From positions 620,001-684,000 of the forward strand of contig NZ_VSMB01000001.1 in NCBI RefSeq assembly GCF_009805705.1: a stretch of 64,000 bases of DNA. The letters are read 5' to 3'. The position numbers were made by a program, and so were the translations under genes. The notes below the pieces were generated by a model, which did not search any database, was not told the DNA's origin, and worked only from the letters and a program-made list of their open reading frames with translations. This document shows, in pieces, positions 49,884 through 59,571 of this stretch; positions within the stretch are counted from its first letter, which is position 1, and each line of letters begins with the position of its first letter. Origin of the DNA: Ruania rhizosphaerae (GTDB taxonomy: Bacteria > Actinomycetota > Actinomycetes > Actinomycetales > Beutenbergiaceae).

Positions 49884-50150
49884 ATGGCCACACGTACCGC
49901 CACGATCGCCTCACCCGTGGGACTGCACGCGCGACCTGCCGCCGTCTTCACGCGCGCCGTCGAGGACACCGGACTGCCGGTCCGGATATCGAAAGCAGGG
50001 TCCGTCCCGCAGGACGCCACGAGCATCCTGGGCGTCATGAGCCTCGGTGTCGAGCACGGTGACGAGGTCACCCTCCACGCCGACGGACCGGAGGCGGACT
50101 CCGTGCTGGAGGACCTGGCTTCCCTGCTCTCCCGCGACCTGACGGCCTAG
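49884..50150 (+). CDS. ptsH: HPr phosphocarrier protein
   Basis: An 88-residue HPr. The active-site His15 is in SPVGLHARPAA, and Ser47 (ATSILGVMSLG) is the regulatory-serine position. It carries phosphate from EI to PTS sugar permeases, or acts in regulation. GAAGGAC precedes the ATG. No ptsI or EII genes are in the window. Confidence 0.93.
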   Translation: MATRTATIASPVGLHARPAAVFTRAVEDTGLPVRISKAGSVPQDATSILGVMSLGVEHGDEVTLHADGPEADSVLEDLASLLSRDLTA

Positions 50151-50154
50151 CGGC

Positions 50155-50706
50155 GTGGCGCGCGGCGGAGAGGTGGATCGCCGGATCCACGAGGCTGCGC
50201 TGGAGCTGCTGCGCTCCCGGGGGCCGGCGGCTGTGACCGTGGAGGCCGTCGCCGCCGAGTCCGGGGTGGCGCGCACGACGATCTACCGGCGTCACCGGGA
50301 CCGGGACGAGGTGCTGGAGTCCGCGCTGAAGGAGATCGCGGCGACCAATCTCCTCACGCCGACCGAGGACGTCTGGGCCGATATGCGGCAGGCGATCGAG
50401 CTGCTGATCGCGACCTTCCAGCAGAACCAGGGCGTCGGGGTGTTCCTCGGTCTGGTCACCGGAGGCGACCCCGAGCTGGTCGAGCTCATCCGCGCCAAAC
50501 TGCTCCGCCCTCGTATCGAGCTCGGGATCATGCGGATGCGCGCAGGGGTGGCGACCGGCCAGATCAGGCAGGATGCCGACGTGGAGACGGCCGCCGACCT
50601 GGTGCTCGGGGCGGTGGCGGCACGTTTCGCACACGCGGGGACGTTCCCACCGGAGTGGATCGACTCCGTGGTGGACCTGGTCAGGAGCGCGCTCGAGGTG
50701 CGCTGA
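50155..50706 (+). CDS. TetR-family transcriptional regulator
   Basis: A 183-residue repressor: helix-turn-helix at about 8-55 (GEVDRRIHEAALELLRSRGPAAVTVEAVAAESGVARTTIYRRHRDRDEVL) and a ligand-binding C-terminus with a TetR_C-type end. Its GTG is five bases after the ptsH stop. It is upstream of and in the same direction as the lipid-gene run, whose promoter contains a perfect 10+10 bp palindrome. It is likely the repressor of that run, sensing a fatty acyl-CoA or related lipid (inference). Confidence 0.9.
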   Translation: MARGGEVDRRIHEAALELLRSRGPAAVTVEAVAAESGVARTTIYRRHRDRDEVLESALKEIAATNLLTPTEDVWADMRQAIELLIATFQQNQGVGVFLGLVTGGDPELVELIRAKLLRPRIELGIMRMRAGVATGQIRQDADVETAADLVLGAVAARFAHAGTFPPEWIDSVVDLVRSALEVR

Positions 50707-50849
50707 GGGTGATGCGCCGACGTCGGAGCTCACCTCGTGAGATCCGCCTCATCGCCGGTGATCACGACCCATCCGGATCCGGCTGTGCTGCGAATCTCTC
50801 CCGAGCGCTGGTACGCGCAGGGCGAACCGCGTAGAGTCGGGCCAGGGTC

Positions 50850-50874
50850 GAACGCTACAGTCTGTGTAGCGTTC
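50850..50874. promoter_or_regulatory. Perfect palindrome upstream of the lipid operon (TetR operator candidate)
   Basis: GAACGCTACA (50850-50859) and TGTAGCGTTC (50865-50874) are exact inverted copies around GTCTG. TACAGT inside it (50856-50861) resembles a -10 box, so binding would block RNA polymerase. It ends 37 bases before the ATG at 50912. Confidence 0.75.
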
Positions 50875-50911
50875 CAGTGGCGCATCGCATACGAACTCCG
50901 AACGAGGAACC

Positions 50912-51706
50912 ATGGCCTTCAACATCGACCGCTTCACCCGGGACTCAGTCCGGGTGAACTGGGAAGACCTCGACCTCGACGTCTTCCGTGAGGACCCGCT
51001 GCCGGCGGAGTCGCTGCGCACGCTGCGGTACATGTGCGACGTGGAATATCACACCGTCTGCTACCTGCGGGACATGCTCGTGACCCCCTCCCGCGGTGAG
51101 GGCGAGGTCAACGCGTTCATGACGATGTGGAACCGCGAGGAGTTCTGGCACGGAGAGGCGCTGGCGCACGTGCTGGACCTGCACGGCATCACGGTCTCTT
51201 ACGACGAGCTGAAGGCCAAGCGGGTCAAGCTTGGGTGGCGGGACCGGATCGCTCCCGTGAAGCAGGCGATGCTCTCCAACATCATCGGCAAGGACTTCGT
51301 GGCGGTTCACATGATCTGGGGTGCGGTCAATGAGTGGTCGGCCTCGGCCGCGTACAAGCGGCTGGCGGCGCTCGAGGGGCATCCGGCGCTTGCGGTGCTG
51401 CTGAAGCGGATCGCGGCCCAGGAGGCGCGCCACGTGGCCTTCTACGCCACCCAGGCGCGCCAGCGGCTCGAGGGCAACCGGAAGGCGCAGAAGCTGGCAC
51501 GACTGGCGTTGTCGACCGCGTGGCGGCCCGTCGGTTCAGGGATCGCCTCGGACGAGGAGGTCACCCATGTGATGGGTCAGCTGTTCGGCGGTGCGGACGG
51601 GCGCAAGGAGATCCGCGCCATCGACGCCCACATCGCGAAGCTCCCGGGGATGGAGGGTCTGACGATCGTGTCGGACTCGCTGGACGCCCGCGGGATTTCG
51701 GCCTAA
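50912..51706 (+). CDS. Ferritin-like di-iron protein (acyl desaturase/oxygenase-like)
   Basis: A 264-residue four-helix-bundle protein with a complete carboxylate-bridged di-iron set: Glu45 (VEYHT), Glu77 and His80 (REEFWHGE), Glu141 (GAVNEWSASAAY) and Glu171 and His174 (QEARHVAFY). This E, ExxH, E, ExxH order is that of acyl-ACP desaturases and related oxygen-activating enzymes; it has no signal peptide. It is the first gene of the lipid run. It may desaturate or hydroxylate an acyl or ether chain. Function is inferred from motif and context. Confidence 0.85.
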   Translation: MAFNIDRFTRDSVRVNWEDLDLDVFREDPLPAESLRTLRYMCDVEYHTVCYLRDMLVTPSRGEGEVNAFMTMWNREEFWHGEALAHVLDLHGITVSYDELKAKRVKLGWRDRIAPVKQAMLSNIIGKDFVAVHMIWGAVNEWSASAAYKRLAALEGHPALAVLLKRIAAQEARHVAFYATQARQRLEGNRKAQKLARLALSTAWRPVGSGIASDEEVTHVMGQLFGGADGRKEIRAIDAHIAKLPGMEGLTIVSDSLDARGISA

Positions 51707-51724
51707 CTGGTGAGGAGCCACGGA

Positions 51725-52558
51725 GTGAGCGCCTCATCGCCCGCCTTCGACGTGCGCGCCTACGTGCGCGAGCCGGTCGACCTGCGTCCGGACCAGCTGG
51801 ACCTGGAGGCCATGGCGAACCTGCCTGCTCCGGTGGTCGGCGCCGTCGGTCATCTGTGGAGCGTGGAGCGGACGATCCTGGACCTGATGCGGGACCTGCT
51901 GGTCACGCCTACGCACGCCGAGGCGCGGGTGACGGCGTTCCTGGGGACGTGGGCCTACGAGCAGTTCTGGATCACCGAATCGCTGGCCGCGGTGCTCAGG
52001 CCCGGGGGAGAGCCCACTGACCCGCCTGATTCCGGTGTGGGCGCGCTGCGAAGGATGTGGGACGAGCGAGTACGGCCGACGGTGGACGCGGTCCGGACGA
52101 ACCTACTCGGGAGCGATGTGGTGGCGGCCCACATGGTCACTGGCTGGCTGAACACGGCCGTGGTCGCGCTGGCGTACGAACGACTGGGCGCGATCGACCC
52201 GCGGTTGCGGCCCCTGACGGCGGCCGTCGCCCCGATCAAGTCGCGGCACCTGGCCTTCTACGAGGACGAGGCACATGCTCGGCTGAGTGGGTCCGCCGGA
52301 GCTATCCGGCTCGCGCGGCGTACCGTCACCCGATGGCAGTGGCCCGGGGTGCGCTATTGCGGGCATGATGCGGCATCCGGCCCGGTGCGGACGTTGCTGG
52401 CCGACCCTGCCGCGCGGCCCGGTGTGCGGGCCGTCGACGCGGGCGTTGCGGCGCTGACCGGGCAGGCGGATGCGGCGCCGCTGCGGGTGGCCTTGGGCGG
52501 ATTCGTCCAGCATTCACCCGTGGGTGGCACCGTAAGGGCCTCGACCCGCGTACAGTAA
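51725..52558 (+). CDS. Degenerate paralogue of the ferritin-like di-iron protein
   Basis: A 277-residue relative of the preceding protein: the same blocks align (RDMLVTPS with RDLLVTPT, EEFWHGEALAHVL with EQFWITESLAAVL, RHVAFY with RHLAFY). Of the six iron ligands only Glu48 and His175 remain; the others are Gln80, Ile83, Thr144 and Lys172. It is therefore unlikely to bind two irons. It may be a partner subunit of the intact protein. The GTG at 51725 has GAGGAG upstream. Confidence 0.8.
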   Translation: MSASSPAFDVRAYVREPVDLRPDQLDLEAMANLPAPVVGAVGHLWSVERTILDLMRDLLVTPTHAEARVTAFLGTWAYEQFWITESLAAVLRPGGEPTDPPDSGVGALRRMWDERVRPTVDAVRTNLLGSDVVAAHMVTGWLNTAVVALAYERLGAIDPRLRPLTAAVAPIKSRHLAFYEDEAHARLSGSAGAIRLARRTVTRWQWPGVRYCGHDAASGPVRTLLADPAARPGVRAVDAGVAALTGQADAAPLRVALGGFVQHSPVGGTVRASTRVQ

Positions 52559-52563
52559 CCGGG

Positions 52564-54873
52564 GTGTCGGACCCTCTGAAGAACGCCCACGTCCTGGTGA
52601 CCGGTGCCACCGGATTCGTCGGTCAAGCCGTCGTGGAGAAGCTGCTCGCGACCTACCCGACGACGCGGATCACGCTGCTCGTGCGCCCGCGCGGCGCCCT
52701 GACCGCCGAGGACCGGGTACGCAAGCTGCTGAAGAAGCCCGTCTTCGGGCCGTGGCGTGAGCGCATAGGTGCTGACACCGCCGAGGCCCAGCTGGCCGAG
52801 CGGATCACCGTCCTGGCCGGCGACCTGGGCGACGTGCCCCCGCTTCCCACGGACCTGACCCACGTGGTGCATTCCGCCTCCACGGTCTCCTTCGACCTGC
52901 CGATCGACGAGGCCTTCGCCGCCAATGTGGGCGGGCCGGTGAGCCTGTATGAGGCGCTCGAAGCGACCGGTGCGGATCCACACGTGGTGCACGTCTCCAC
53001 GTGCTACGTGGCGGGCCTGCGCAAGGGACTGGCCGAGGAGCGCAGCCTCGACCACGATGTGGACCGTCGCGTCGAGACCACGCGCGCGTTGCGGGCTCGC
53101 GAGTCCGCCGAGGCTGCCTCGCGTCGCCCGCAGGTGCTCGACAAGATCGTCGCCAAGGCTCGCGCGACCCACCGTCGCGCCGGGGCCCAGGCCGTGGCGC
53201 AGGCAGCGGAGGAAGCGCGCCGGGCGTGGGTGAACGATCAGCTCGTCACCGCCGGCCGGACCCGCGCCACCTCGCTCGGGTGGCCGGATGTGTACACCTT
53301 CACCAAGGCACTCGGTGAGCGGGTGGCCGAGGATCTGTGGGCCGGTGCCGGGCACCGCCTGTCGATCGTGCGCCCGACCATCATCGAGAGTTCGTTGCAG
53401 CACCCGTTTCCCGGCTGGATCGACGGGTTCAAGGTGGCCGACCCGCTGATTGCCGCCTACGGGCGCGGCATGCTGCCGGAGTTCCCGGCGCTCGCGGACT
53501 CCATCCTGGACGTCATCCCTGTCGATCATGTGGTGAACGCGATCCTCGCCGCGGCGGCGAGCCCGCCGGAGGTCGCGGAGGAGCCCGACGAGGCTGCGGC
53601 CACGAGCGTGGCTCCGCACACGAGGGCCGCCTACTATCAGGTGGCCTCCGGCAGCCGGAACCCGCTGCGGTTCGGCACGATCCTGCGGCTGCTGCGGGAG
53701 TATTTCGAGCAGCACCCGCTCACCGGTGATGACGGGTCGTTCGTGCAGGTGCCGAACTGGACCTTCCCGCACGGGCCGGCGGTGCAGCGGTCGCTGCGTC
53801 GCCGGGAGATGGCGGTCGATCTCGCGGACTCGCTGGTGGGCAAGTTGCCGCCGAACGAGACCACCCGGTCCTGGATCTCCTCGGTGTACAAGGCCAAGCG
53901 CGACCTCGGCACCCTGCGCAAGTTCACCGATCTGTACCAGGCGTACACGCAGACCGAGGTGGTCTTCGACGACACCCACACGCACGCCTTGCATGAGGCT
54001 GTCCCGGCGGAGCGGAGCGAGGAGCACGGCTTCGACGTGTCCGCGATCGACTGGACGTACTACATGAAGGAGGTGCACGTCCCGAAGGTGCCGGGGCTGA
54101 TGCGCGCACGCCGGCCGCACAACAAGCCGAGCACGAGCGCGAAGAGCCTGCCGCAGCGAGAGGACGTGCTCGCCGTCTTCGACCTGCACGGCACGGTCGC
54201 GTCCGCGAGCCTGATCGAGCACTACGTGTGGGTCGAGCTCGCCGCCAAGGGAGCAGTGCCCGCGCTGCGCGGGCTGGGCGGCATGGTCGCCTCCTCGGGC
54301 ACCTACCTGCAGGCCGAGTGGCGTGACCGTGGTGATTTCATCCGCTCGTTCATGCGCCGCTACGCCGGGGTGGACGAGGCGGTGCTGCGCGAGGTCATCG
54401 CTACCAAGGTGACGCCGTCGCTACGGGCGCGGTTGCTGGCCGAGGCCACCGAGCGGATCGCGCTGCACCGCGCCGCCGGTCACCGGACGGTGCTGGTCAG
54501 TGGCCAGATCGACGTGTTCGTGGAACCGCTCGCTGACATGTTCGATGTGATCGTGGCCGGGCAGATGGAGAAGGATTCCGGCGGTCGCTGGACCGGCCAC
54601 CTGGCGACCTCGCCGCTCGTGGACGAGGCGCGCGCCTCGTGGCTGCGCCGGTACGCCCGCGAGGAGGGGATGGATCTGGCCGGCTCCTACGCCTACGGCG
54701 ACACCTACGCCGACCGGCCCTGGCTGGAGGTGGCGGGAAAGCCGAACGTGGTCAACCCGGACGCCACTCTGTACCGCTACGCCCGTGAGAAGCGCTGGCC
54801 GGTCCACTCGTGGACCACGACGGCGGAAGGTAGGTTTTCGCCCGTCCTCCGTTCGCTGGGGTCGCGTCGATGA
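52564..54873 (+). CDS. Fatty acyl-CoA reductase fused to a HAD-IB domain
   Basis: A 769-residue protein. The N-terminal two thirds are a NAD(P)-binding male-sterility-type reductase: VLVTGATGFVGQAVVEKLL, VVHSASTVSFDLP, an active-site Tyr244-x3-Lys248 (VYTFTKALGE) and RPTIIESSLQHPFPGWIDG. It would reduce acyl-CoA to aldehyde or fatty alcohol. The C-terminal HAD-IB domain (about 530-740) has motif I as FDLHGT (Asp540, but His542 where Asp is usual), SGQIDVFV and AYGDTYAD. The HAD part may be altered in activity. No membrane segment. It ends overlapping the SDR start by ATGA. Confidence 0.87.
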   Translation: MSDPLKNAHVLVTGATGFVGQAVVEKLLATYPTTRITLLVRPRGALTAEDRVRKLLKKPVFGPWRERIGADTAEAQLAERITVLAGDLGDVPPLPTDLTHVVHSASTVSFDLPIDEAFAANVGGPVSLYEALEATGADPHVVHVSTCYVAGLRKGLAEERSLDHDVDRRVETTRALRARESAEAASRRPQVLDKIVAKARATHRRAGAQAVAQAAEEARRAWVNDQLVTAGRTRATSLGWPDVYTFTKALGERVAEDLWAGAGHRLSIVRPTIIESSLQHPFPGWIDGFKVADPLIAAYGRGMLPEFPALADSILDVIPVDHVVNAILAAAASPPEVAEEPDEAAATSVAPHTRAAYYQVASGSRNPLRFGTILRLLREYFEQHPLTGDDGSFVQVPNWTFPHGPAVQRSLRRREMAVDLADSLVGKLPPNETTRSWISSVYKAKRDLGTLRKFTDLYQAYTQTEVVFDDTHTHALHEAVPAERSEEHGFDVSAIDWTYYMKEVHVPKVPGLMRARRPHNKPSTSAKSLPQREDVLAVFDLHGTVASASLIEHYVWVELAAKGAVPALRGLGGMVASSGTYLQAEWRDRGDFIRSFMRRYAGVDEAVLREVIATKVTPSLRARLLAEATERIALHRAAGHRTVLVSGQIDVFVEPLADMFDVIVAGQMEKDSGGRWTGHLATSPLVDEARASWLRRYAREEGMDLAGSYAYGDTYADRPWLEVAGKPNVVNPDATLYRYAREKRWPVHSWTTTAEGRFSPVLRSLGSRR

Positions 54874-55673
54874 GGGGCAGGTCTCACACCACGCCGGTTC
54901 CGATCGCCGGGACTGCGATGGTGACGGGCGGGACTTCGGGGATCGGCTTGGCGTTCGCGCGGGCACTGGCCGCACGTGGATGCGACCTGGTGCTGGTGGC
55001 GCGGAACCGCCAGCGCCTTGACGCCACGGCCGAGGCGCTGCGCTCCGAGCACGGTGTGGCTGTGGAGACGCTCGTGGCCGACCTGGGCAGGCGCGGGGAC
55101 GTCGACGTCGTCGCCCGGCGTCTCGAGGACGCGAGCGCGCCGGTGGATATCCTGGTCAACAACGCCGGGATGGGCGTGCACACGCCGCTGACGTCCACCG
55201 AGATCGCAGTGCACGACGAGGCGATCGACGTGATGATCCGGGCGGTGCTCGTACTCGGCGGTGCGGCGGCGCGGACGATGGAGCAACGCGGTAGCGGCAT
55301 CATCGTGAACGTGGCCTCGGTGGCCGGCCAGGTGGCGATGGGCTCCTACTCGGCGATCAAGTCCTGGGTGGCGACGTACTCGGAGTCCCTCAGCCTCGAC
55401 ATGGAGGGCAGTGGGGTGCAGGTGATGACCCTGATGCCCGGGTGGGTGCGTACGGAGTTCCACGAACGCGCGAAGATCCGGACGAGCTCGATCCCGGACG
55501 CGCTGTGGTTGGACGCGGACGATCTGGTGACCGACTGCCTGGCCGACCTGGAACGGGGGCGGACCAGGTCGATACCATCCAAGCGGTTCCGGGTGATCTC
55601 GTGGCTTGCGCAGCGCCTGCCTCGCGCCCTGGTCCGCAGAGCGACGGCACGGATCAAGAAGGGGCGCCGATGA
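54870..55673 (+). CDS. Short-chain dehydrogenase, candidate alkyl/acyl-DHAP reductase
   Basis: A 267-residue classical SDR with TGGTSGIGLAFARAL (NADP-type Rossmann), NNAGMGV, the Ser of NVASVAG and Tyr160-x3-Lys164 (SYSAIKS). A basic, hydrophobic C-terminus (ISWLAQRLPRALVRRATARIKKGRR) suggests membrane association. By position between the reductase and acyltransferase it is a candidate for ketone reduction of alkyl-dihydroxyacetone phosphate. The ATG overlaps both neighbours. Confidence 0.86.
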   Translation: MRGRSHTTPVPIAGTAMVTGGTSGIGLAFARALAARGCDLVLVARNRQRLDATAEALRSEHGVAVETLVADLGRRGDVDVVARRLEDASAPVDILVNNAGMGVHTPLTSTEIAVHDEAIDVMIRAVLVLGGAAARTMEQRGSGIIVNVASVAGQVAMGSYSAIKSWVATYSESLSLDMEGSGVQVMTLMPGWVRTEFHERAKIRTSSIPDALWLDADDLVTDCLADLERGRTRSIPSKRFRVISWLAQRLPRALVRRATARIKKGRR

Positions 55674-56431
55674 GCACGAGGGACGAGCGCAAGCGCACCT
55701 CGCGCTACCACTCTGCCGTGCACCGGTGGGCCCGGTACATCGCGCAGCGATTCATCTTGCGCCCGATCGTGTTCTCGAACGTGCGGGTGACCGTCGAGGG
55801 TGAACGGCACGTGGCGGACCTCGACGGTCCCTTCATCGTGGTGGCCAACCACTCCAGTCACCTGGACGCCCCACTGTGCATCACGGCGCTGCCGTATTCG
55901 GTGACCAAGCACGTCGCGACGGCGGTGGCGGCCGACTACTTCTATCGCTCGACCTGGCGCAGCTCGCTGACGTCGCTGTTCTTCAACTCCTACCCGGTCG
56001 AACGCGGTAAGGCGCGCGGGAAGTCGTCTGGACTGTCGGTCTCGCTGTTGCGGCAGGGGGTGCCGTTGCTGATCTTCCCGGAGGGGACGCGTTCGCGCAC
56101 CGGTGAGATGGCCGACTTCACGCCCGGTGCGGCAGCCCTGGGCCGGGCGTTGCGGGTGCCGATCGTGCCGGTGGCACTGGTGGGTGCTCACGATGCGATG
56201 CCGCCGGGCACGTTCTGGCCCAAGACTGGCCGGATGCCGGTGAAGGTGCTGATCGGCAAGCCGGTGCGGGTGCGCCCTCGGGAGGCGCTTGCTGACCTGA
56301 ACGCACGACTGACGGCACGGGTACGGGCGATGCACACGATGCAGACGTCGTACGTGCTGGTCACCGATGACGACCGTCCGTCCAACTCTGGTGAGTCGGA
56401 GCTGCCGGACGCACAGGAAGGGATCTCATGA
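55670..56431 (+). CDS. PlsC-type 1-acylglycerol-3-phosphate acyltransferase
   Basis: A 253-residue acyltransferase with the catalytic motif NHSSHLD (60-66) and the substrate-binding FPEGTRS (136-142), followed by VPVALVGAHDAMPPG. It transfers acyl chains to a glycerolipid precursor, possibly dihydroxyacetone phosphate or the ether lysolipid. The ATG at 55670 overlaps the SDR stop. It overlaps the next gene by ATGA. Confidence 0.9.
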   Translation: MSTRDERKRTSRYHSAVHRWARYIAQRFILRPIVFSNVRVTVEGERHVADLDGPFIVVANHSSHLDAPLCITALPYSVTKHVATAVAADYFYRSTWRSSLTSLFFNSYPVERGKARGKSSGLSVSLLRQGVPLLIFPEGTRSRTGEMADFTPGAAALGRALRVPIVPVALVGAHDAMPPGTFWPKTGRMPVKVLIGKPVRVRPREALADLNARLTARVRAMHTMQTSYVLVTDDDRPSNSGESELPDAQEGIS

Positions 56432-58110
56432 GCGACGTCGTTCACCAGAAGTGGTGGGGCTGGGGTGTGGAAGGTGTGGCCTTCAACCCTGACAACAAGC
56501 CGGGCTTCGCCCCGTTCGTCCGCAAGGTGATCGGGATCGATGTGACCGGGCCCGCTGGGAGCCCGCCCTCGTTCGATGAGTTGGACGTTCCGGCCTCGCG
56601 CCTTCCGGATGAGCTGGGCGCGACGTTGCGTCGGCTGGTGGGCGACCACCAGGTCACCACGGACGACATGGATCGCGTGGTGCACACCTACGGCAAGGGT
56701 TTGCGCGACCTGGTGCGGGTGCGTGCCGGTGACCTGCCGCGGGTACCGGATGTGATCGTGTACCCGGCGAACGAAGACGAGGTCCGCGCGATTGTCGACG
56801 CCGTGGTGGATGCCGACGCCGTGATCATCCCGTTCGGTGGCGGCTCGAACATCTCCGGGTCGCTGACGCCGGAGGCGGACGAGGACCGCACCGTGGTCTC
56901 GCTCGACCTGGGGCGGTTGAACCGGGTGCTCGAGATCGACTCCGATGCCGGGCTGGCACGGGTGCAGGCCGGTGGCCTGGGCCCGGACCTGGAGGAGCAG
57001 CTCACTGAGCGCGGCTGGACGATGGGGCACCAGCCGGACTCGTTCAAGCACTCCACTCTCGGTGGCTGGATCGCAACCCGGTCCTCGGGCATGCAGTCCG
57101 ACAAGTATGGCGATATTGCCGAGATCGTGCGTGGCATGACGGTGGTGCTGCCGGGCAAGGTCGTGACGCTGCGCCCGCTGCCGAGCACGTCCACCGGTCC
57201 GAGCGTGCGAGAGATGATCCTCGGTTCGGAGGGTCGCCTCGGGGTGATCACCGAGGCGTGGGTGCATGTGCACCGGCTGCCGGAGAACCGCGAGGTCATC
57301 GCTTACCTCTTCCCGAACTGGGCCGCGGGGATCGCTGCGATGCGCGACATCTCGGTCTCGGATGCGACGCCGTCGATCACCCGCGTCTCGGACGCGAATG
57401 AGACGGCCTTCTCGCTGGCTACCCGCAAGGAGTCCAAGGGCTTGTCCTCCAAGGTGGGCGAGGGGCTGTTCGAGCTGCTCCGCCGCCGCGGATGGGACCT
57501 GGAGAAGGTCTGCATCTCCTACATCGGCTACGAGGGCGGTTCGGCGAAGGTCCGTGCCGACAAGTCCGAGGTCGGGAGAATCGTCGGCAAGCACGGCGGT
57601 ATCAAGCTCGGCAAGGGCCCGGGCGCGATGTACGACCAGAAGAAGTTCGACACTCCGTACCTGCGGGACTTCCTGCTCGACCGGGGCGCCCTCGGCGACG
57701 TCTCCGAGACTGCTGCCCCGTGGTCACGCCTGGGTGAGGTCTACGTCTCCACCGTGCGCGCGGCGAAGAAGGCGTACGAGGAGGTGGGCGTCCAGGGGTT
57801 CATCATGTGCCACCTCTCGCACTCCTACCACTCGGGTGCGTGCCTGTACTTCACGTTCGCCTTCCCGCCGCGCGAGGATACTCCGGAGCTGGAGCAGTAC
57901 GACGTGGTGAAGTCGGCGATCCAGCAGTCCTTCATCGACCACGGCGGGACCCTCTCCCACCACCACGGGGTGGGCACCGACCACGCCCCGTGGATGGAGC
58001 AGGACATCTCCGAAGCCGGTGTGGACCTGATGGTGGGACTGCTTTCCTCGGCCGACCCGGGCCGCAACCTGAACCCGGGCACGCTGCTTCCGCCCGAGCG
58101 GGAGTGGTGA
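56428..58110 (+). CDS. agpS: Alkylglycerone-phosphate synthase-like FAD enzyme
   Basis: A 560-residue FAD-linked oxidase/transferase. The N-terminus QKWWGWG is a signature of the alkyl-DHAP synthase family, the FAD PP-loop is FGGGSNISG (136-144), and the catalytic His cluster is in SHHHGVG (His511-His513). In animals and myxobacteria this enzyme swaps the acyl chain of acyl-DHAP for a fatty alcohol, forming the ether bond. It has no peroxisomal or membrane signal. The length fits bacterial AgpS. It ends the lipid run and is followed by a long perfect hairpin. Confidence 0.88.
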   Translation: MSDVVHQKWWGWGVEGVAFNPDNKPGFAPFVRKVIGIDVTGPAGSPPSFDELDVPASRLPDELGATLRRLVGDHQVTTDDMDRVVHTYGKGLRDLVRVRAGDLPRVPDVIVYPANEDEVRAIVDAVVDADAVIIPFGGGSNISGSLTPEADEDRTVVSLDLGRLNRVLEIDSDAGLARVQAGGLGPDLEEQLTERGWTMGHQPDSFKHSTLGGWIATRSSGMQSDKYGDIAEIVRGMTVVLPGKVVTLRPLPSTSTGPSVREMILGSEGRLGVITEAWVHVHRLPENREVIAYLFPNWAAGIAAMRDISVSDATPSITRVSDANETAFSLATRKESKGLSSKVGEGLFELLRRRGWDLEKVCISYIGYEGGSAKVRADKSEVGRIVGKHGGIKLGKGPGAMYDQKKFDTPYLRDFLLDRGALGDVSETAAPWSRLGEVYVSTVRAAKKAYEEVGVQGFIMCHLSHSYHSGACLYFTFAFPPREDTPELEQYDVVKSAIQQSFIDHGGTLSHHHGVGTDHAPWMEQDISEAGVDLMVGLLSSADPGRNLNPGTLLPPEREW

Positions 58111-58123
58111 ACCGCCTCCACCC

Positions 58124-58184
58124 GCGCGAACGCTGACTTGTTCGGCATCTGACGCACGGATGCCGAACAAGTCAGCGTTCGCGC
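58124..58184. repeat. Perfect 26-bp inverted repeat, terminator or mobile palindrome
   Basis: Arms at 58124-58149 and 58159-58184 are exact complements (beginning GCGCGAACGCTGACTTG) around a nine-base loop TGACGCACG. It starts 14 bases after the agpS stop. No T-run follows. It can end transcription of the lipid run, and its length and perfection also suit an interspersed palindromic element. Confidence 0.8.
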
Positions 58185-58233: not shown

Positions 58234-59571
58234 GTGACCTCACCGGACGTGGACCACGACCCGAAAGCCACGGTGGGCCCCAACCCTCCCTGGCGCTACG
58301 CCGTCGGGATGTTCGGGACCTCGATCCCGATCAACCTGATCAAGGGCTCGATGATCCTCTACTACGTGGACATCCTGGGCCTGGATGTGCGGGCGTACGG
58401 GGTGGTGATGGTGATCTACGCGATCATCGACGCCCTCGACAACCCGCTGCTCGGCTTTCTCTCCGATCGCACGCGTACCCGCTTCGGCCGCCGTCGGCCG
58501 TGGCTGCTGATCGGCGCGCCGCTGCTGGCCGCGTGCATGATCGCGTTCTTCTCCGCACCCACCTCGCTGGAGGGGATGGGCCTGGTGCTGTGGTTCGCGG
58601 TGTTCGCGATTCTGTGCGAGGCCTTCGACTCGATGCTCAACGCCAACTACGGCGCCCTGCTGCCGGAACTGTTCCCGGCCGAGCGCCGCCGGGCGGTGGC
58701 GAACTCGCTGCGGCAGGGATTCCAACTGGTGGCTCTGGTGATCTCCCTCGCCGTCACGCCGCTGCTGACCACCAGCGTGTTCGGCACTGAGACCACCACC
58801 GAGGGCTTCACCACCACGGCGATCATCTACGGCGCGATCGCGGTGGTGGTGATCTCCTTCATGGCCCTCTCGGTCCGGGAGAACCCGCGCTACTCCACCC
58901 GCGAACGCCCCCGCTTCCTGCCCGCGATCGGCTCCGTGCTGCGCAACCCGCTGTTCTGGCAGGTGGGCCTGGTGGGCGCCTGCTACGGCATCGCGATGGC
59001 GCTGGTGCTCAGCGGTGTGCAGTTGTACGTGCGCTACAGCCTCGGCCTACCCGTGGCCAACGCGCTGTACCTGCAGGGTGCCGTGATTGGTGTGACGGCC
59101 CTCGCGCTGCTCGCCTGGACGCGGCTCGTCGCGCGGTTCGGGGCGCCGCGGATGTGGCGGATCGCGTTCCTTGTCCTCGCCGGCGGATTCGTCGCCCTGT
59201 TCTTCGCTACGGATCTACTCACCGGAATCCTCGCCGGGGTCGTGCTGGGCCTGGGCTGGTCCGGCATGCTCGCCACCAACGACCTCATCGTCGCGCGTGT
59301 GCTCGATGGCGACGCCGCCCGCCATGGGGAGCATCGCGAGGGTCTGTTCCTCTCCGCGTTCGGGTTCTTCGGCCGCCTCAACGGCGTGGTCACCGGGCTG
59401 GCGCTGACCTCACTGGGCGTGTTCTTCGGCTACAACTCCGGCGACGATCCCGGCACCGACCCGGGCTTCGCGTTCCGCGTCTACCTCACCGTGTATCCGT
59501 TCGCGCTCACGGTGATCGGCGCCGTCGCCTCCCGCTTCGTGCGGCTCCCCGAGGCCGGTGCGCCGCGATGA
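58234..59571 (+). CDS. GPH-family sugar:cation symporter (MelB-like MFS)
   Basis: A 445-residue 12-helix transporter with the GPH pattern YVDILGLDVRAYGVVMVIYAIIDALDNPLLGFLSDRTRTRFGRRRPWLLIGAPLLA. This group imports glycosides and oligosaccharides with Na+ or H+. The GTG at 58234 follows the long hairpin and is likely nearly leaderless. It overlaps the deacetylase gene by ATGA, so the imported compound may be an N-acetylated or esterified sugar. Confidence 0.9.
   Translation: MTSPDVDHDPKATVGPNPPWRYAVGMFGTSIPINLIKGSMILYYVDILGLDVRAYGVVMVIYAIIDALDNPLLGFLSDRTRTRFGRRRPWLLIGAPLLAACMIAFFSAPTSLEGMGLVLWFAVFAILCEAFDSMLNANYGALLPELFPAERRRAVANSLRQGFQLVALVISLAVTPLLTTSVFGTETTTEGFTTTAIIYGAIAVVVISFMALSVRENPRYSTRERPRFLPAIGSVLRNPLFWQVGLVGACYGIAMALVLSGVQLYVRYSLGLPVANALYLQGAVIGVTALALLAWTRLVARFGAPRMWRIAFLVLAGGFVALFFATDLLTGILAGVVLGLGWSGMLATNDLIVARVLDGDAARHGEHREGLFLSAFGFFGRLNGVVTGLALTSLGVFFGYNSGDDPGTDPGFAFRVYLTVYPFALTVIGAVASRFVRLPEAGAPR

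Follow-up and report, generated by a model that had tools for sequence, protein, structure and literature searches.

Can actinobacteria make ether phospholipids aerobically from the genes of a single operon, and are plasmalogens among the products? The question is raised by a locus of Ruania rhizosphaerae (genome size 4.4 Mb), which we analysed in a stretch of 64,000 nucleotides (NZ_VSMB01000001.1, positions 620,001–684,000), referred to below as the window. A gene for a TetR-family regulator is followed here by six genes on the same (plus) strand, encoding a ferritin-like di-iron protein (DI1), its degenerate paralogue (DI2), a fatty acyl-CoA reductase with a C-terminal HAD domain (FAR), a short-chain dehydrogenase/reductase (SDR), a PlsC-family acyltransferase (PlsC) and a FAD enzyme related to alkyl-dihydroxyacetone-phosphate (alkyl-DHAP) synthase (AGPS). 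A preliminary description of the window had claimed this seven-gene layout and an ether-lipid pathway; all genes were found at the positions it gave, as were the ATGA overlaps at FAR/SDR, SDR/PlsC and PlsC/AGPS and every motif it had named in the AGPS-like protein, the reductase and PlsC.

Dimethylacetals (DMA) are a marker of plasmalogens. Reports of them in aerobic actinobacteria go back to 2000 (Mannisto et al., 2000, cited in PMC5945732 and PMC7472656), and their presence there has been described as surprising at first sight (PMC7472656); the literature that we searched names no gene for them, where this and all later statements from published work refer to the accessible parts of the articles. 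The operon supplies candidate genes, and the question becomes genetically testable. That the operon makes ether lipids is very likely, and that it yields plasmalogens with DI1 as the desaturase is favoured over the contrary. The reading as a whole, an operon under TetR control that makes ether phospholipids aerobically, most likely plasmalogens, with DI1 as the desaturase, is in our judgement moderately probable.

The FAD enzyme as an alkyl-DHAP synthase

The gene identities and catalytic residues are established by sequence, structure or conservation, and the pathway depends first on the last gene. AGPS (56428–58110) carries FAD_binding_4 and FAD-oxidase_C domains and the motifs QKWWGWG (at residue 7), PFGGGSNI (at 135) and SHHHGVG (at 510). 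Its best solved relatives are the enzymes of Dictyostelium and guinea pig (381.8 and 316.3 bits; PDB 2uuu, 5.5e-113, and 4bby, 3.9e-93), whereas lactate/glycolate-type dehydrogenases reach at most 76.6 bits. Positions D303, T309, R419, R515, Y578 and H615–617 (guinea-pig numbering), which we take to be the active-site residues of AGPS, are identical in 13 of 13 members of the window clade; position L469 is Gly here, the same as in Dictyostelium. A tree of 20 rows groups the window clade with eukaryotic AGPS (support 91/91), apart from other bacterial FAD oxidases, a placement to be read with a long-branch warning and with the small number of eukaryotic rows, two, in mind. The identification is convincing, and exchange of an acyl for an alkyl group on DHAP is the predicted activity.

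Another, widespread bacterial FAD clade is about 32–38% identical and has Gln at position 303 in four members. AGPS is likewise the closest solved relative of one of its members, at a lower 215.3 bits. Among the best 80 of 365 relatives of the window enzyme in named genomes, from a search that may omit very near records, the nearest is that of Ruania albidiflava (L070, 84% identity); in a separate search a same-genus genome reaches 98%. On plasmids, one close AGPS record and one DI1 record were found, both in Streptomyces sp. NBC_01450, whereas the more distant FAD clade gave about 47.

Companion enzymes and proposed pathway

FAR (52564–54873; PF07993, 1.2e-46; PF12710, 4.9e-30) has a NAD_binding_4 domain with TGATGFVG at 13 and Y244xxxK248, and its closest structure is the fatty acyl-CoA reductase 7eoz (2.9e-46). 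In the fused HAD domain the nucleophile D540 is kept in 76 of 76 rows and position 542 is H, E or Q in 75 of them; because the second Asp is lost, a role as an active phosphatase is doubtful, which suggests a pseudo-phosphatase or an altered activity. SDR (54870–55673; PF00106, 4.3e-39), a putative reductase of alkyl-DHAP and/or acyl-DHAP, carries TGGTSGIG at 19 and Y160xxxK164, with S150, Y160, K164 and R45 all present in 94 of 94 rows. PlsC (55670–56431, scanned from 55667; PF01553, 1.2e-21) contains NHSSHLD at 60 and FPEGTRS at 136, and H61, D66, E138 and R141 are all present in 96 of 96 rows. It is putatively a DHAP acyltransferase or an sn-2 acyltransferase of 1-alkyl-glycerol 3-phosphate (1-alkyl-G3P).

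We infer the substrates and the order of steps as follows. FAR would convert ordinary (branched) acyl-CoA to fatty alcohol, and PlsC or a different acyltransferase would supply acyl-DHAP. AGPS would then swap the acyl group for the alcohol to give alkyl-DHAP, SDR would reduce the ketone to 1-alkyl-G3P, and the sn-2 position would be filled by PlsC or a housekeeping acyltransferase. Finally, DI1, possibly paired with the metal-less DI2, would desaturate the alkyl chain at C1′–C2′ in an O2-dependent reaction, giving the vinyl ether. The ether-lipid pathway of the preliminary description is strongly supported by the tree and scores that link the FAD enzyme to eukaryotic AGPS and by the recurrence of its gene order described below.

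The di-iron protein and its degenerate paralogue

DI1 (50912–51706) is the candidate vinyl-ether-forming desaturase. Its E-ExxH-E-ExxH set of di-iron ligands is complete (E45, E77/H80, E141, E171/H174) and does not vary across the 50 rows compared (46 distinct sequences). As had been stated, DI2 is degenerate. DI2 (51710–52558) belongs with 50 rows (47 distinct sequences) that are all degenerate: the H80 position is lost in all 50, the E171 position is K, R or N in all 50, and the E77 position is K, Q or R in 46. DI2 is likely a non-catalytic partner of DI1.

The predicted model of DI1 finds its best matches in soluble acyl-acyl carrier protein (acyl-ACP) desaturases, with Foldseek E-values of 1.3e-3 at best and 14–20% identity. 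The window protein scores 18.7 bits against PF03405, under the Pfam cut-off of 22.7, and 23 of 40 relatives match this family at E ≤ 0.01 (best 1.5e-5). Going by the model, DI1 could possibly belong to a family unseen in the structural listing, such as the aldehyde-deformylating oxygenases.

Conservation and co-occurrence of the gene set

An AGPS profile identified 365 relatives in named genomes, and neighbourhoods were counted for the best 80. Neighbours were accepted at 45% identity within 6 kb for SDR, 38% within 3.5 kb for PlsC, and 45% (FAR) or 55% (DI1) within 10 kb. By these measures SDR accompanies 77 of the 80 AGPS loci, PlsC 79, FAR 59, DI1 39 and DI2 39. Every DI1-linked locus also carries DI2 and FAR and thus the whole set, with FAR, DI1 and DI2 often on the opposite strand. 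Of the three loci lacking SDR, two are truncated where the contig stops (L113, L136), and the third, from Nonomuraea (L119), is uncut. The gene set clusters far beyond chance.

The FAR-SDR-PlsC-AGPS order, for which the preliminary description had recommended a search of other genomes, is found again in several genera, among them Jiangella, Georgenia, Occultella and Pseudactinotalea, and the operon is conserved across families. In Jiangella, Georgenia and Pseudactinotalea it stands without a linked DI1, which is found elsewhere in the genome in three of three Jiangella and two of two Pseudactinotalea. The FAR of Propionibacteriaceae is unlinked yet present in all four genomes tested (G438, G449, G450, G451).

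Two side observations concern the composition of such loci. Genus g61 (L053, L054; G111, G061) has a window-clade AGPS (62%) with no nearby SDR or PlsC and no DI1, its FAR lying elsewhere in both genomes. In the clusters of Subtercola lobariae and genome G113, the genes separating FAR from DI1 encode a protein with a lactate-racemase N-domain (Lar_N) and one of the PlsC family (L101:3499–5034 and L190:10900–12966, both on the minus strand).

Co-occurrence is also established genome by genome. Among 249 Microbacteriaceae (AGPS at E 1e-150, DI1 at E 1e-60), AGPS is present in 69 and DI1 in 75; 67 have both, two AGPS only, eight DI1 only and 172 neither (Fisher value 7e-49, ignoring the relatedness of the genomes). 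The two genes lie within 15 kb of each other in 66 of the 67 pairs, and on two contigs in the remaining one. The AGPS-only genomes, G780 and G791, are assemblies of 85% and 77% completeness. In G785, one of the eight with DI1 only, FAR adjoins DI1 close to where the contig begins, and the absence of AGPS may be an effect of assembly. A sample of 394 genomes from the class, with window-clade AGPS defined at E < 1e-190 and DI1 at 1e-8 (distant relatives included), contained AGPS in 37, DI1 in 41, both in 22 and DI1 only in 19.

Published lipids of operon carriers

Subtercola vilae, S. boreus, S. frigoramans and S. lobariae contain 6.9–17.0% i-16:0 DMA and 3.2–11.0% a-15:0 DMA (17.0 and 3.2% in S. 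vilae, 11.9 and 11.0% in S. boreus, 6.9 and 9.7% in S. lobariae), and Agreia contains up to 4% iso-15:0 DMA (PMC5945732). The full gene set is present in S. vilae DB165 (L129), the strain that was measured, in S. lobariae (L101) and in A. pratensis (L100). Three S. boreus loci (L102, L108, L110) have it too, all from strains that differ from the measured one; the loci include none from S. frigoramans. An a-15:0 aldehyde or DMA is reported for Frigoribacterium D8 and F. faeni (PMC12823222), and three Frigoribacterium loci carry the set (L139, L144, L146; strains other than those measured). The aerobic Kineococcus rubinsiae has 2.9% a-15:0 DMA (PMC7472656), and Frondihabitans is said to be without acetals (PMC5945732).

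We searched for the known vinyl-ether enzymes in 24 AGPS-carrying genomes, including the window's own and those of S. vilae, S. lobariae, three S. boreus and A. pratensis. PF10520 (CarF/PEDS1) was found in none of the 24; nor did any of 14 control genomes give a match, and matches in 9 of 246 Actinomycetota show that the scan detects the family. PF09989 (DUF2229), which we take to be the PlsA domain, was found in none of the same carriers and in 4 of the 14 controls. With neither domain found, CarF and PlsA were rejected as the source of the acetals in the 24 carriers. CarF is described as restricted to very few bacteria (PMC9131029).

Weighing the plasmalogen reading against its alternatives

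The Subtercola acetals, the absence of CarF and PlsA domains in the 24 genomes and the desaturase-like fold all favour the earlier suggestion of product desaturation by the di-iron protein; the reaction itself is one that we infer, and DI1 is also present in genomes that lack the pathway. DI1, perhaps with DI2, would most likely form the vinyl ether. A bolder proposal is that DI1 and the metal-less DI2 constitute a second, independently evolved aerobic plasmanyl desaturase, soluble, ferritin-like and unrelated to CarF/PEDS1, which accounts for the plasmalogens found in aerobic actinobacteria such as Subtercola and has spread over several actinobacterial families; we put this at a shade under an even chance. 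Were DI1 indeed the desaturase, evolution would have arrived at the plasmalogen double bond once more, by way of a soluble di-iron enzyme. Such a result would be of value to biocatalysis and to the study of lipid evolution, and genomes could be mined for plasmalogen producers.

Several points weigh against DI1 as the desaturase of an AGPS-based route. It would be unusual for a soluble desaturase to act on an ether lipid of the membrane. Many AGPS carriers have no DI1: it is missing in 13 of 27 AGPS genomes tested, among them all five Georgenia and five of six Propionibacteriaceae, and in 15 of the 37 class-sample genomes with window-clade AGPS. Oceanitalea (G439), a relative of Georgenia, does have DI1, as does the sixth genome of the Propionibacteriaceae (G451). 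Conversely, DI1 occurs without window-clade AGPS or FAR (1e-60) in eight Microbacteriaceae of three genera (G117, G389, G140, G707, G781, G886, G738, G900); DI1 would therefore serve outside this route, or the AGPS-less strains would obtain their ether lipid otherwise. On the lipid side, two other Frigoribacterium species are without the acetal (PMC12823222), the accessible part of a 2023 Herbiconiux description mentions no acetals though Herbiconiux loci carry the operon, and our literature search found no lipid data for Ruania, nor does the accessible part of PMC8878594 hold any; lipid production by R. rhizosphaerae itself is put forward as a prediction. The AGPS homologue of Myxococcus xanthus gives a minor share of the ether lipids (PMC9131029), hence our caution in assuming flux through AGPS. 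Of the nine actinobacteria with CarF, eight gave no AGPS-like match at 1e-30, and the full-length AGPS-like gene of the ninth (G576, discussed below), on a contig other than that of its CarF gene, belongs to the other FAD clade, with Gln at 303.

As to the DI1 genes found apart from the pathway, DI2 adjoins DI1 in the three inspected of the AGPS-less, FAR-less genomes, and G140 has DI1 plus an AGPS-like gene of the other FAD clade. In two loci with a DI1-DI2 pair and neither FAR nor AGPS nearby (L184, L185), an mfd/TRCF-type gene follows, and in L185 a peptidyl-tRNA hydrolase gene precedes.

The strongest alternative, which we consider rather unlikely, is an operon for alkyl ethers only: FAR, AGPS, SDR and PlsC would make plasmanyl lipids, DI1 and DI2 would have some other function, such as desaturation or hydroxylation of an acyl or alkyl chain at a distance from the ether bond, and another enzyme would produce the Subtercola acetals. 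Acyl-ACP desaturases, which DI1 resembles, act mid-chain. The FAR-SDR-PlsC-AGPS core stands without a linked DI1 in 20 of the 80 loci, and the Georgenia genomes and the DI1/DI2 genes in genomes without FAR and window-clade AGPS fit this explanation as well. It is opposed by the near-complete linkage of DI1, DI2 and FAR with AGPS in Microbacteriaceae, and by the published vinyl-ether markers in such genomes, which have no CarF or PlsA domain.

It is improbable that the DI1 module acts instead on a FAR-derived aldehyde or alcohol, towards an alkane, wax or other neutral lipid, with AGPS as a side partner. Two genomes (G113, G187) do have FAR and DI1 without an AGPS-clade match at 1e-30, and FAR, the Lar_N protein, PlsC and DI1 are clustered in G113; against this, the eight scanned window proteins match no wax-synthase or alkane-forming family, and AGPS has its SDR neighbour in 77 of 80 loci. 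Very improbable is an operon unrelated to ethers with a D-2-hydroxyacid dehydrogenase or other oxidase as the FAD enzyme, the outcome by which the preliminary description would have been overturned: GlcD is the best NCBIfam match (1e-40), but at 139.9 bits against a cut-off of 567.9, and the bit scores, the AGPS residues and the tree, which places the enzyme with eukaryotic AGPS, discard it.

Regulation and operon boundaries

The operon would be under the control of the TetR-family protein (50155–50706; PF00440 and PF16859, both above cut-off), a predicted and likely repressor. Between its gene and DI1 lies a perfect 10-5-10 palindrome (50850–50874) containing CGCTACA-N5-TGTAGCG at 50853–50871. 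This 19-bp core recurs without a mismatch in all 10 of the other Ruania and Occultella gaps between TetR and DI1 (9 distinct genomes), in most of which the flanking sequence has diverged, and the palindrome is likely the TetR operator. Among 224 loci 12 match, every one at the TetR-DI1 site; the remaining loci hold no exact copy, so other families would use another signal. The order ptsH-TetR-DI1 is kept in all 10 of the Ruania and Occultella loci (9 distinct genomes) in which TetR and DI1 precede AGPS. The gene immediately upstream of TetR in the window (49884–50150) is presumably ptsH (HPr).

Downstream of AGPS, a perfect 26-bp inverted repeat (58124–58184) may form an end-of-operon hairpin. 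The segment 58105–58215 folds at −71.9 kcal/mol (z −8.35; none of 200 shuffles equal), with arms at 58126–58149 and 58159–58182, two further pairs read from the sequence and no T run; its exact core was not found in the relatives' loci that were checked. A GPH/MFS symporter gene (58234–59571) was rejected as a member of the operon, being downstream in the closest relatives only (L005/L064, L006, L008/L065).

Comparison with known ether-lipid systems

The preliminary description knew of no aerobic actinobacterial operon with this full set, and none appeared in the accessible parts of the literature searched; the AGPS-FAR route itself is known from animals and had been outlined in Myxococcus. 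As such it is not new to bacteria, because the M. xanthus operon and AGPS homologues in actinobacterial metagenome bins (PMC11868695) had been noted earlier.

A locus from another actinobacterial family (L223, genome G576) has CarF adjoining FAR and an AGPS-like fragment at a contig end, as if CarF filled the place of DI1. This is possibly a CarF-type ether-lipid locus in Actinomycetota, a phylum left unnamed for CarF in the accessible part of a review (PMC9131029). The other FAD clade may hold AGPS too, since the CarF-bearing G576 has a full-length member of it.

The animal peroxisomal pathway (FAR1, GNPAT, AGPS, alkyl-DHAP reductase and PEDS1) shares with the operon a FAR, an acyltransferase, AGPS and an SDR, and an O2-dependent last step is proposed here too; the genes of the bacterium form a single operon, with PlsC instead of GNPAT and a soluble ferritin-like candidate desaturase, PF10520 being absent from the 24 carriers tested. 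M. xanthus, also an aerobic bacterium, has an AGPS homologue beside FAR-like and NAD-dependent genes (MXAN_1676–1674: AGPS, FAR with an acyltransferase domain and a NAD-epimerase-like protein). In that organism a GNPAT-like domain is part of the FAR protein, CarF forms the vinyl ether and ElbD provides the main route (PMC9131029), whereas here FAR is fused to HAD, PlsC is separate and DI1 and DI2 are part of the operon. The clostridial plsA-plsR is likewise a bacterial operon yielding vinyl ethers, with orthologues named in some Actinobacteria; it reduces diacyl lipids anaerobically, without alcohol or DHAP (PMC9702350), and its DUF2229 is absent from all 24 carriers here. Soluble acyl-ACP desaturases (PF03405, DesA2), finally, have the ligand set and helical-bundle fold of DI1, from which they differ in sequence at the low identity given above and in the metal-less paralogue that DI1 has as a partner.

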